Shown piece by piece: positions 8,049 through 11,220 of a stretch of 64,000 nt of DNA; position 1 is the stretch's first letter; each line of letters opens with the position of its first letter. A program made the position numbers and the translations under genes. This DNA is from Oceanibaculum indicum P24. GTDB lineage: Bacteria; Pseudomonadota; Alphaproteobacteria; Oceanibaculales; Oceanibaculaceae. The notes beneath the pieces are model-generated. The model worked only from the letters and a program-made list of their open reading frames with translations. It had not been told where the DNA came from and did no database searches. The stretch is from positions 186,001-250,000 of the forward strand of contig NZ_AMRL01000001.1 of assembly GCF_000299935.1 (NCBI RefSeq), in the 5' to 3' direction.

Positions 8049-8131
8049 GTCACCCTCGGGCTTGACCCGAGGGTCCAGCGGTCAGTGCGGTTCGCTCGGT
8101 CAATGGATGGTCGGATCAAGTCCGACCATGA
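8049..8131. repeat. Dispersed GTCA...TGAC hairpin repeat, copy 1
   Basis: The left arm is a perfect hairpin, ACCCTCGGG-CTTGA-CCCGAGGGT (8052-8074). The right arm is ATGGTCGGA-TCAAG-TCCGACCAT (8107-8129). The element opens with GTCA and closes with TGAC. Same layout as the elements at 11123, 13026, 40459 and 47129. Confidence 0.85.
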
Positions 8132-8219
8132 CGAAAGAGAAAGCGGTTCTTCCGCGGAGAGAGTTCAGCCCCCATTGTGCGTTGCAAAAAATTCAGCCCC
8201 CTCCTGCGCACATTTCCGC

Positions 8220-8247
8220 TTGACGGAAAAACCGCCATCCCTATCTT
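8220..8247 (+). promoter_or_regulatory. Candidate sigma-70-type promoter for metNIQ
   Basis: TTGACG (8220-8225), a 16-base spacer, then TATCTT (8242-8247). Transcription from about 8254 would place the SAM-II aptamer right at the 5' end of the mRNA, as expected. This is a motif match only. Confidence 0.5.
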
Positions 8248-8254
8248 CACCAGC

Positions 8255-8322
8255 AGACAGGGAAACTTGTCTCGCGGTGATTTGAGGGAGCAGCTTGCGC
8301 CGCGTCAACAAACGCTAAAGCG
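8255..8322 (+). promoter_or_regulatory. SAM-II riboswitch
   Basis: The segment contains the conserved SAM-II pieces in order: GGTGATTTGA (8276-8285), GCTTGC (8293-8298), CGCGTCAACAAACGCTAAAG (8301-8320). A preceding hairpin AGACAGG-GAAA-CTTGTCT (8255-8272) has a GNRA loop. SAM-II aptamers are found mainly in Alphaproteobacteria ahead of methionine genes and lower expression when S-adenosylmethionine binds. Here it lies ahead of metNIQ, which fits. It is unusual in being about 250 bases from the metN start, whereas SAM-II normally sits next to the RBS it hides. Confidence 0.85.
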
Positions 8323-8368
8323 CCACGGAGCGTATTCGTGGTTTTCCCGTCTGTTGATGGAGTGAGCC

Positions 8369-8449
8369 ATGTGTGCGCTTTTTTTATTGCCTGATTTCCC
8401 GGCCTCCGGCGCCACCCGCCGAATGTGCCGCTGCCGCTGTCGAACCTGA
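8369..8449 (+). CDS. Upstream ORF / possible Cys-rich leader peptide
   Basis: A 26-codon ORF with GGAG six bases before its ATG. The peptide starts MCALFLLPDF and ends MCRCRCRT, with three Cys codons alternating with Arg just before the stop. The last Cys codons and the stop lie in a 6-bp hairpin GCTGTC-GAACCT-GACAGC (8436-8453). A GC hairpin with a T-run follows at once. This resembles a translated leader peptide that senses Cys-tRNA, but translation is not shown. It could also be chance coding in a GC-rich leader. Confidence 0.4.
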   Translation: MCALFLLPDFPASGATRRMCRCRCRT

Positions 8450-8454
8450 CAGCC

Positions 8455-8497
8455 GGCCTGGCCCGGCCCTCTTCCGCAAGAGCGCCCGGCCCTTTTT
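8455..8497 (+). terminator. Possible attenuator hairpin in metN leader
   Basis: An inner stem CTCTT-CCGC-AAGAG (8469-8482) lies within a GC-rich outer stem. GGCCTGGC (8455-8462) can pair with GCCCGGCC (8484-8491) with one mismatch, and TTTTT follows at 8493-8497. Its left arm shares bases 8455-8457 with the hairpin over the Cys codons, so the two folds compete. This would be a plausible expression platform. Confidence 0.45.
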
Positions 8498-8570
8498 CCC
8501 TTTTCCAGAACGATTGAACCCGCCCGCCAGCGGGGACATTCCGTCATCCTTACGTCAGGAGTCCCAGGAC

Positions 8571-9632
8571 ATGATCCAGCTCGATCAGGTCTCCAAACAT
8601 TACCCGCCGCCCAAGCGCGGTGGACCTGCTGTTACCGCCCTGAACGAGGTCAGCCTGACCATCGGGGCCGGTGAGATCTACGGCATCATCGGCCGGTCGG
8701 GTGCCGGCAAATCGACGCTGATCCGCGTCATCAACCGGCTTGAGGCCCCCACCTCCGGCCGCGTGCTGGTGGACGGTGTGGAGATATCCGCCCTGTCCGG
8801 CGCCGCCCTGCGCCGGGAACGCCGGGGCATCGGCATGATCTTCCAGCATTTCAACCTGCTGTCCTCGCGCAGCGTGTTCGACAATGTGGCACTGCCACTG
8901 GAACTGGCCGGCCTGCCGAAAGCCGCGATCAAAGCCAGGGTCGAGCCGCTGCTGGAACTGGTCGGCCTTACCGACAAGCGCGACCGCTACCCCGCCGAAC
9001 TGTCCGGCGGGCAGAAGCAGCGCGTCGGCATCGCCCGCGCGCTGGCGACCGAGCCGAAGGTGCTGCTGTGTGACGAGGCGACCAGCGCGCTGGACCCGGA
9101 AACCACACGCGACGTGCTGCGGCTGATCGCCGAGATCAACCGCAAGCTGGGGCTGACGGTCGTCCTCATCACCCACGAGATGCATGTCATCAAGGAAATC
9201 TGCCACAAGGTGGCGGTGCTGGAGGCCGGCAGGGTGATCGAACAGGGCAGCGTGTTCGAGGTATTCACCCGGCCGCAGCACCCGACCACGCGCTCCTTCA
9301 TCGGCATAGTGACCGGCATTGACCTGCCGCCGTCGCTGGCCAACCAGTTGCAGGCCGAGGCGCAGCCGGGCGGCGAGGCGGTGCTGCTGATCCGCTTCAC
9401 CGGCGACAGCGCCGACCAGCCGATCCTCAGCCGACTGGCCCGGCATCACGGCATCGACGCCAACATCCTGTCGGGCCGCATCGACCATATCCAGGGCCGG
9501 CCCTTCGGCACGCTGGTGGTCTCCCTGCCCAATGGCGAGACGCTGGGCACAGCACTCGCCTTCTTCCAGTCCCATCAACTTTCCGTGGAGGTCCTGGGCC
9601 ATGTCGCACCAGCTCTTCTTGCTGCTGGCTGA
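8571..9632 (+). CDS. metN: Methionine ABC transporter ATP-binding protein MetN
   Basis: 353-residue ATPase of the D/L-methionine importer. Walker A is GRSGAGKST (near residue 43), signature LSGGQKQRVGIARAL (near 143), Walker B VLLCDEATSALDP, and a switch His in ITHEMHV. The C-terminal ~95 residues form the NIL/ACT-like domain that in MetN binds methionine and inhibits transport. The ATG at 8571 follows AGGAG. A frame open from 8373 has no support as coding. It overlaps metI by 32 bases and is controlled by the SAM-II leader. Confidence 0.93.
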   Translation: MIQLDQVSKHYPPPKRGGPAVTALNEVSLTIGAGEIYGIIGRSGAGKSTLIRVINRLEAPTSGRVLVDGVEISALSGAALRRERRGIGMIFQHFNLLSSRSVFDNVALPLELAGLPKAAIKARVEPLLELVGLTDKRDRYPAELSGGQKQRVGIARALATEPKVLLCDEATSALDPETTRDVLRLIAEINRKLGLTVVLITHEMHVIKEICHKVAVLEAGRVIEQGSVFEVFTRPQHPTTRSFIGIVTGIDLPPSLANQLQAEAQPGGEAVLLIRFTGDSADQPILSRLARHHGIDANILSGRIDHIQGRPFGTLVVSLPNGETLGTALAFFQSHQLSVEVLGHVAPALLAAG

Positions 9633-10266
9633 AGCCACGCTCGACACGCTCTACATGGTCGCGCTGTCCGGCGCCATCGGCACGGCGCTGGGCCTGCCGC
9701 TCGGTGTCTGGCTGGCGACCTCCGGCCAGGGCGAACTGCTGGCCGCCCCGCTGTTCAACCGCATCGGCGGGGTGCTGGTGAATGCCACCCGCTCGACGCC
9801 CTTCATCATCCTGGTGGTGGCGATCATCCCGTTCACGCGGCTGGTCGCCGGCACTTCCATCGGCACCAGTGCGGCCATCGTACCGCTGACCGTGGCCGCC
9901 ACGCCCTTCATCGCGCGCATCGTCGAGACGGCAATCCGCGAGGTGGATCGCGGGCTGGTCGAGGCGGCGGAGACGATGGGCGCCACCCCCTTGCAGATCA
10001 TCGCCAAGGTGCTGGTGCCGGAAGCCCTGCCCGGCATCCTGCTGGGCCTCACTTTGGCCATCGTCAGCCTGATCGGCTACTCGGCCATGGTCGGCGCGGT
10101 CGGCGGCGGCGGGCTGGGCGATCTTGGCATCCGCTATGGCTACCAGCGTTTCATGCCGGAGGTGATGGCCGCCGTCGTCCTCCTCCTCATCGTGCTTGTG
10201 CAGGGCATCCAGTCGCTGGGCGAACGCCTCGCCCGGCGGGTGAACAAGCGCCTGCGCACCGCCTGA
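9601..10266 (+). CDS. metI: Methionine ABC transporter permease MetI
   Basis: 221-residue inner-membrane permease with about five transmembrane segments. The coupling (EAA) loop reads EAAETMGATPLQIIAKVLVPEALPG near residues 120-145 (quoted here as EAAETMGATPLQ and LVPEALPG in the family). The start at 9601 lies inside the end of metN and has GGAGG upstream within metN, suggesting translational coupling. A glycine run MVGAVGGGGLGDLGIRYGY follows, typical of MetI. It works with MetN and MetQ. Confidence 0.93.
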   Translation: MSHQLFLLLAEATLDTLYMVALSGAIGTALGLPLGVWLATSGQGELLAAPLFNRIGGVLVNATRSTPFIILVVAIIPFTRLVAGTSIGTSAAIVPLTVAATPFIARIVETAIREVDRGLVEAAETMGATPLQIIAKVLVPEALPGILLGLTLAIVSLIGYSAMVGAVGGGGLGDLGIRYGYQRFMPEVMAAVVLLLIVLVQGIQSLGERLARRVNKRLRTA

Positions 10267-10298: not shown

Positions 10299-11087
10299 AT
10301 GAACAAGCGTATCCTCGGCGGCCTCGCCGCCCTGCTGCTCACCGCCGGTCTCGCCGGTGCCGCCTCGGCGGAGACCATCCGCGTCGGCGTCTCCGCTGGC
10401 CCGCACGCCGAAATCCTGGAGCAGGTGAAGAAGGTCGCGGCACAGGACGGGCTCGACATCAAGATCATCGAGTTCACCGACTATGTCGTGCCGAACACCG
10501 CGCTGGCGTCCGGCGATATCGAGGCCAATTCCTTCCAGCACCTGCCCTATCTGGACAATCAGGTGAAAGATCGCGGCTTCAAGCTGGTGTCGGTCGGCCA
10601 GACCGTGGTGTTCCCGATGGGCTTCTATTCGAAGAAGGTGAAGTCCTTCGACGCGCTGCCCGAGGGCGCCACCGTGGCGATCCAGAACGACCCGACCAAT
10701 GGCGGCCGCTCGCTGCTGCTGCTGCAGGCCAAGGGCGTCATCAAGCTGCGCGACGGCGTCGGCCTGAAGCCGACCCTGCTGGACATCGCGGAGAACCCCA
10801 AGAAGCTGCGCCTGATCGAGCTGGACGCGGCGCAGCTGCCGCGCTCCCTGGATGACGTCACGGCAGCGGCGGTGAACACCAACTACGCCGTCGAGGCCGG
10901 CCTCGACCCGGTGAAGGACGCCATCGCGCGGGAGACTGCCGAGTCGCCCTACACCAACATCATCGCCGTACGCGAGCAGGACAAGGGCAAGCCCTGGGTT
11001 GCCGCCCTGCTGAAGGCCTATCACACCCAGCCGGTGAAGGAATTCATCCAGACCCGCTTCAAGGGCGCGGTCGTCACCAGCTGGTAA
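10299..11087 (+). CDS. metQ: Methionine-binding protein MetQ
   Basis: 262-residue NlpA/MetQ-family substrate-binding protein. The N-terminal signal peptide (MNKRILGGLAALLLTAGLAG) ends in AASA before ETIRVGVSAGPHAEILE, so cleavage by signal peptidase I is predicted; there is no lipobox Cys, unlike E. coli MetQ. NSFQHLPYLDNQ and MGFYSKK are family landmarks. AAAGGAG precedes the ATG. Third gene of metNIQ. Confidence 0.93.
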   Translation: MNKRILGGLAALLLTAGLAGAASAETIRVGVSAGPHAEILEQVKKVAAQDGLDIKIIEFTDYVVPNTALASGDIEANSFQHLPYLDNQVKDRGFKLVSVGQTVVFPMGFYSKKVKSFDALPEGATVAIQNDPTNGGRSLLLLQAKGVIKLRDGVGLKPTLLDIAENPKKLRLIELDAAQLPRSLDDVTAAAVNTNYAVEAGLDPVKDAIARETAESPYTNIIAVREQDKGKPWVAALLKAYHTQPVKEFIQTRFKGAVVTSW

Positions 11088-11122
11088 GGCTTACCTCTCC
11101 GACCTGTCACCCGCTCCGACCT

Positions 11123-11220
11123 GTCACCCTCGGGCTTGACCCGGGGGTCCAGGGGCGGTGCCTTGCCTGTAGCGTTACAGAACATGGCCCCTGGATTGCC
11201 GGGTCAAGCCCGGGAATGAC
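11123..11220. repeat. Dispersed GTCA...TGAC hairpin repeat, copy 2
   Basis: The left arm GTCACCCTCGGGCTTGACCC continues GGGGGTCCAGGG. The right arm is CCCCTGGATTGCCGGGTCAA then GCCCGGGAATGAC. It lies between the convergent metQ and enoyl-CoA hydratase genes and may help end transcription from both sides. Confidence 0.85.

Follow-up and report, generated by a model that had tools for sequence, protein, structure and literature searches.

A SAM-II riboswitch with a predicted terminator of its own and a second conserved module upstream of metNIQ in Oceanibaculum indicum P24: a possible two-stage attenuation leader

The DNA analysed in this study (the window) is a stretch of 64,000 nt from Oceanibaculum indicum P24 (GCF_000299935.1, NZ_AMRL01000001.1, positions 186,001-250,000, forward strand), in which the genes metN, metI and metQ follow a long leader. 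An earlier sequence-only reading of the same DNA had placed the metN start at 8571 and named the operon metNIQ; both assignments are confirmed, the former by a conserved AGGAG that precedes the start and the latter by Pfam matches to all three genes. The metN frame in the window is open upstream as far as a GTG at 8373 (8373-9632, 419 aa) and overlaps the short upstream ORF (uORF) described below out of frame. This GTG was considered as the metN start and rejected, since the frame reaches a stop before metN in congener G001 and an annotation beginning there would thus be wrong; the ATG at 8571 and its Shine-Dalgarno (SD) sequence are conserved. Separately, a GC-rich palindromic intergenic sequence (CGGGCTTGACCCGAGGGTCCAG ... 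ATCAAGTCCGACCATGACGA, window 8050-8150) resembles by eye the dispersed intergenic repeats of Alphaproteobacteria, and a similar palindromic stretch, again by eye, seems to come after metQ at approximately 11090-11150. The features of the leader and the genes are as follows.

8220..8247, + strand: sigma70-like promoter, TTGACG-16-TATCTT (1 found versus 0.0 expected in shuffles)
8264..8338, + strand: SAM-II (SAM_alpha) riboswitch aptamer, RF00521, 36.8 bits
8304..8358, + strand: predicted antiterminator, aptamer 3' half with terminator 5' arm, -20.5 kcal/mol (window)
8329..8385, + strand: predicted SAM-II intrinsic terminator, 21-bp hairpin 8329-8379 plus T7 8379-8385, -28.0 kcal/mol, z -7.3
8359..8362, + strand: SD of the uORF, GGAG, paired in the terminator state and free in the antiterminator state (sequence and predicted folds)
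8369..8449, + strand: uORF of 26 codons (27 in two congeners), ending TRRMxRCRCR(T/A) (sequence and four-species alignment)
8433..8457, + strand: hairpin 1:2, spanning Cys codons 22-24 and the stop of the uORF, -13.8 kcal/mol, z -5.0, 10/10 pairs invariant
8452..8467, + strand: possible antiterminator 2:3, GCCGG 8452-8456 with CCGGC 8463-8467, -7.7 to -8.7 kcal/mol
8460..8497, + strand: hairpin 3:4, stem 8460-8491 plus T5 8493-8497, a weaker terminator-like element, -18.5 kcal/mol, z -1.7
8571..9632, + strand: metN (Pfam ABC_tran and NIL domains)
9601..10266, + strand: metI (Pfam BPD_transp_1)
10299..11087, + strand: metQ (Pfam NlpA lipoprotein, Lipoprotein_9)

All comparative evidence rests on four genomes of one genus (the window and three congeneric species), and distribution was surveyed in 385 alphaproteobacterial genomes (the four congeners and 381 others), among which the order is represented by this genus only. 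Secondary structures were folded without the SAM-II pseudoknot or ligand.

The TTGACG hexamer of the promoter is invariant in the four species and the second hexamer is conserved as TAT.TT. Transcription is predicted to start just 5' of the aptamer, and a promoter and start site immediately before the aptamer are the usual layout for SAM-II (Corbino 2005, PMC1273637). The SAM-II consensus blocks that the sequence-only reading had noticed at 8276-8320 fall within the RF00521 match, which scores just above the gathering score of 36 in the window and between 36.8 and 41.0 bits in the congeners. P1 is formed by 8273-8278 and 8299-8304, the conserved GCTAAAG lies at 8314-8320, and 58 of the 60 columns of the core are invariant across the four species. 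A candidate P2 pseudoknot (GGAGC 8287-8291 with GCGCC 8320-8324) shows four of five pairs by eye and, being invariant, offers no covariation. The position upstream of methionine/SAM/sulfur genes, here metNIQ, is as expected for this family.

The strongest structure of the whole leader, absent from the sequence-only reading, is the hairpin at 8329-8379 with its T7 tract, which came to light when the leaders of the four species were folded to a consensus. None of 300 shuffled sequences folded as well, and the equivalent terminators of the congeners have z scores of -6.0 to -7.0. All 21 pairs are kept in the four species, with three pairs varying and one of these changed on both sides, a retention that across four sequences lends support to the structure but is not proof. 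The antiterminator at 8304-8358 has counterparts in the congeners (-19.5, -14.9 and -14.9 kcal/mol; 94% of cells paired), forms in nascent folds ending at 8357-8369, and disappears when the aptamer core is kept from pairing, a constraint that only roughly imitates bound SAM. Antiterminator and terminator are mutually exclusive, as in terminator-type SAM-II riboswitches. Because the terminator is thermodynamically the stronger of the two, this first stage would rely on co-transcriptional kinetics. On the strength of these predicted folds and their conservation, we consider it very probable that the first stage is a terminator-type SAM-II riboswitch. With SAM bound, the 3' half of the aptamer would be engaged, the antiterminator blocked, and RNA polymerase would halt at the T7 terminator; at low SAM the antiterminator would form first, transcription would continue, and the SD and AUG of the uORF would be exposed.

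SAM-II terminators are already known, including that of Sinorhizobium meliloti metZ (Corbino 2005, PMC1273637; Scheuer 2022, PMC9373788), and a simple script located a terminator after the aptamer at 59 of the 75 further SAM-II loci surveyed in Alphaproteobacteria, with loci lacking a match to a short motif skipped. The terminator of this genus's metN leaders lies at a distance comparable to that in the surveyed loci, and its position also agrees with that at the two other SAM-II loci in the genome of the window. The suggestion that this SAM-II lies oddly far from the ribosome-binding site is consequently wrong: the intrinsic terminator and antiterminator stand at the usual place, and since the SAM-II carries its own terminator the gap between aptamer and ribosome-binding site is ordinary. 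A long gap between SAM-II and gene thus need not imply missing control at the ribosome-binding site, and a likely misreading of such leaders is corrected. The distance from core to gene is nevertheless the longest observed (251-253 nt here compared to no more than 185 nt elsewhere, where some starts have probably been called too late). It was also considered that SAM-II might act mainly by blocking translation of the uORF, whose SD and AUG lie inside the 3' arm of the terminator. At high SAM, termination would be accompanied by burial of this SD and AUG, and the effect is kept as a side effect only; the hairpin is better read as a terminator because it ends in T7.

Downstream of the terminator lies a second module, consisting of the uORF and two hairpins. 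The uORF (translation MCALFLLPDFPASGATRRMCRCRCRT) keeps its frame, start and stop in all four species, and its GGAG stands 6 nt from the ATG in the window and 6-7 nt across species. The sequence-only reading had described a 26-codon ORF with a good ribosome-binding site; the ORF and the site stand, with the correction that the site sits in the 3' arm of a terminator. Indels within the uORF are of 3 nt, compared to 1-2 nt outside it, and variable columns number 8, 2 and 6 at codon positions 1, 2 and 3, a weak signal. Hardly any change is seen among the species in the unpaired TRRMxR-coding stretch, which immediately precedes hairpin 1:2 and belongs to neither hairpin. Of the Cys codons that had led to a description of the ORF as Cys-rich, codons 22 (8432-8434) and 24 (8438-8440) are invariant in the genus and alternate with Arg, but Cys2 and Cys20 occur in the window only, and the tail holds five invariant Arg codons versus two invariant Cys codons. 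Among the SD-preceded short ORFs of the window, 3 of 55 have at least two Cys in their last eight codons and only this one has at least three, so that its Cys content is weakly above chance. The uORF matched none of the NCBIfam leader-peptide models.

The two downstream hairpins exceed chance. Hairpin 1:2 was described earlier as a hairpin over the Cys codons and stop, and its z score bears this out. The other, previously given as a competing GC hairpin with T5 at 8455-8497, is indeed a hairpin with a T5 tract, and its stem (8460-8491) and that of 1:2 are disjoint and therefore do not compete; the sole pairing that competes with both is the weak one between 8452-8456 and 8463-8467. Ten pairs of hairpin 3:4 are common to all four species and all are invariant, whereas its T-tract measures 5, 4, 4 and 3. 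All four species retain the 2:3 pairing, despite two substitutions that turn pairs into G-U. The interval from the Cys codons to the 5' arm of 3:4 has no indel in the four species, and 3:4 follows the stop codon at a distance of 10 nt. Across 1:2 and 3:4, none of the 40 paired columns varies, compared to 10 of 19 unpaired columns (Fisher p 1.5e-6, which is indicative given that the sequences are related). Because all 40 paired columns are invariant, compared to 68% of four-fold sites in metN and only 22% of the spacer columns upstream of the metN SD, the second module is, to judge from the alignment, under selection. The sequence-only reading had named loss of the ORF or of the T-run hairpin in close relatives as evidence against it; both are present in the three congeners, with the T-tract shrinking from five to three.

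Each of the four genomes of the genus retains the module, and a covariance model of it run against the 385 genomes of the class recovered the four congeners only, with no homologue in the 381 others. None of the 75 other SAM-II leaders has an ORF whose last eight codons include two or more Cys, compared to all four leaders here. Among Azospirillum and other named relatives, no SAM-II was found at the 20 metN loci scanned, and a Cys-tailed ORF of this type was found upstream of metN at none of 80 loci. Codon patterns were too permissive for this purpose: the loose pattern RCRCR-X-stop matched 206 of 385 genomes, giving too many chance matches, and a stricter version (TGA plus TTTT) matched five genomes outside the genus, which look like chance given the short strings matched. 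The module, so far seen in one genus only, looks like a second switch.

These observations suggest that the metNIQ leader may be a two-stage transcription-attenuation leader, in which a SAM-II riboswitch with its own terminator is followed by a uORF and two-hairpin module; we put the probability of this reading at roughly one half. The existence of a second stage is well supported by the four-species comparison, and its mode of action can be proposed by inference. A ribosome would translate the uORF after read-through of the first stage. If held at the Cys (or Arg) codons 20-25, it would prevent 1:2, favour 2:3 and weaken 3:4; if it reached the stop, it would cover segment 2 and let 3:4 form. 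Taking the 3' edge of the ribosome to lie about 15 nt downstream of the first base in the P site (the usual footprint, itself an assumption), a stall at Cys22 or Cys24 is predicted to free 8452-8456, and a ribosome at the stop is predicted to cover 8452-8456 and leave 8460 onward free. This modelled geometry fits leader-peptide attenuation gated by a riboswitch. The uORF module would then act as a further control point ahead of metN, and what it reads is most plausibly how fast the Cys/Arg tail is translated; full metNIQ output would be expected only if low SAM coincided with a shortage of charged Cys-tRNA.

The energetics sit less easily with this scheme. The 2:3 pairing has only 5 bp and is far weaker than 3:4 (about -8.7 versus -18.5 kcal/mol), and in equilibrium folds it failed to outcompete 3:4, which forms wherever the ribosome is placed. 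The same program gives values for 2:3 and 3:4 of -19.5 and -21.8 kcal/mol for E. coli thr and -15.0 and -14.0 kcal/mol for E. coli trp. Because of the poor 2:3 energetics and a T-tract that falls to three, the module is not filed here as a classical attenuator, but it may work like one. The sequence-only reading had proposed a composite leader sensing SAM and Cys-tRNA. Its composite nature holds, in that a SAM-II is joined by a further conserved module containing a short ORF, but its premise of a distant ribosome-binding site does not. The Cys-tRNA input is possible, against which stand the two invariant Cys codons among a larger number of Arg codons, a 2:3 pairing far weaker than in thr or trp, and occurrence in one lineage. 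A leader with two inputs, SAM and Cys-tRNA, is plausible; Cys-tRNA as the signal of the second stage is put forward tentatively, and the most specific form of the model, in which the SAM-II terminator would hold the start of a Cys-sensing leader peptide, SAM would determine both read-through and access to the cysteine-reading attenuator, and methionine import would be subject to a sequential AND gate requiring low SAM first and low Cys-tRNA second, seems rather unlikely.

There are several potential alternatives. It is possible, if doubtful, that SAM-II alone regulates and that what is conserved downstream is an RNA structure from which no leader peptide is translated, in which case the two GC hairpins might be a partial second terminator, a pause site or a stability element, and the Cys-rich ORF might be a by-product of a CGCTGC repeat and the hairpin sequence. 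All variable columns within the hairpin spans are unpaired, so that structure explains most of the conservation there, and RNA structure alone could conserve the second Cys codon because this codon sits in the stem of 1:2. Structure would also keep much of the uORF as a whole, since its start lies in the terminator arm, conserved in any case, and its end in hairpin 1:2. The modest Cys enrichment relative to other short ORFs and the weakness of 2:3 point the same way. What such a view leaves over is the near invariance of the unpaired TRRMxR stretch, together with the 3-nt indels inside the ORF as opposed to 1-2 nt outside and the maintained SD spacing of 6-7 nt. On balance, the uORF is probably translated and of consequence.

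If it is translated, the signal need not be stalling at Cys. Translation of the uORF might itself open 3:4, with the riboswitch working through access to the uORF start as well as through its own terminator, so that metNIQ would be read at low SAM provided that translation keeps pace. At the stop, the 3' edge of a ribosome would lie at about 8459, against the base of 3:4 at 8460, and a ribosome placed there with its edge set at 8460 weakens 3:4 from -18.5 to -15.4 kcal/mol in the folds; the 10-nt spacing from stop to 3:4, free of indels in four species, and the placement of SD and AUG inside a SAM-controlled hairpin are in keeping with this. However, an edge only a few bases shorter hardly affects 3:4, and the kept Cys/Arg codons and hairpin 1:2 are left unexplained, so that we regard this explanation as improbable. 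Still less probable is that the uORF senses arginine or undergoes charge-dependent arrest through its Arg tail, or senses metal or redox state through nascent Cys, rather than Cys-tRNA. The preponderance of invariant Arg over Cys codons in the tail would suit it, and a copper-responsive uORF is described in another bacterium according to PMC9426467, but metNIQ and the other target genes of SAM-II suggest sulfur supply and the operon contains no metal or redox gene.

Several known systems resemble this leader. Like S. meliloti metZ-type SAM-II leaders, this one has an aptamer at the start of the transcript, a near-consensus promoter, a sulfur/methionine gene (PMC1273637, PMC9373788) and an intrinsic terminator within approximately 60 nt of the core; it differs in having some 190 nt more between terminator and metN, with an ORF and two hairpins, and in carrying the SD and AUG of a uORF in the terminator arm. 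The S. meliloti metA leader (PMC9373788) likewise combines SAM-II, a terminator and an upstream AUG, and its riboswitch acts at a distance, but in metA the aptamer contains the SD and the upstream AUG is in frame with the gene, whereas here a separate uORF ends in Cys-Arg. Leader peptides with Cys codons are known from Actinobacteria, without conserved hairpins (Seliverstov 2005, PMC1262725; such peptides are also attributed to Canestrari 2020 in PMC13236596), and share with this uORF a short length, Cys codons near the stop and a position upstream of sulfur genes. In contrast, they have Cys runs, no riboswitch and no conserved hairpins, where the present leader has alternating Cys-Arg, a SAM-II and two hairpins. 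The E. coli thr and trp attenuators resemble it in that their control codons fall within the 5' arm of 1:2 and their stop at the 3' arm, with 3:4 further downstream, and differ in the strength of 2:3 relative to 3:4.

Leaders with two control elements, which is the likeness to the present one, include Salmonella mgtCBR (PMC3641672), Bacillus clausii metE (as reported in PMC3641672) and a tandem SAM-II/SAM-V (PMC9481103), and a riboswitch with a translated uORF is already known from the B12 riboswitch of Mycobacterium tuberculosis (PMC11260477). No report of SAM-II paired with an amino-acid leader peptide was found in the open-access literature searched. If the proposed second stage is real, a riboswitch and an amino-acid leader peptide would be wired in series, with the terminator arm doubling as the start region of the uORF, and one leader would read sulfur metabolism at both its end product (SAM) and a precursor (Cys). 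Should it not be, the leader still shows a genus-specific second module inserted after a standard SAM-II terminator.

Further SAM-II copies were observed in the genus. In congener G002, four extra copies on contigs C116, C17 and C46 (L084, L087, L090, L093) score 65-79 bits; since these scores are far above the approximately 34-41 bits of the genus's own copies, they suggest contaminating contigs or foreign DNA. The genome of the window carries two more copies on contig C8 (25936-26012 and 26648-26726; L003, L001 1501-1620), about 700 nt apart, each directly followed by a strong hairpin with a long T-run. One precedes a gene for an NMT1/SsuA-like substrate-binding protein and the other an OsmC-family gene, and a SAM-II in front of an OsmC gene may deserve attention for its own sake.
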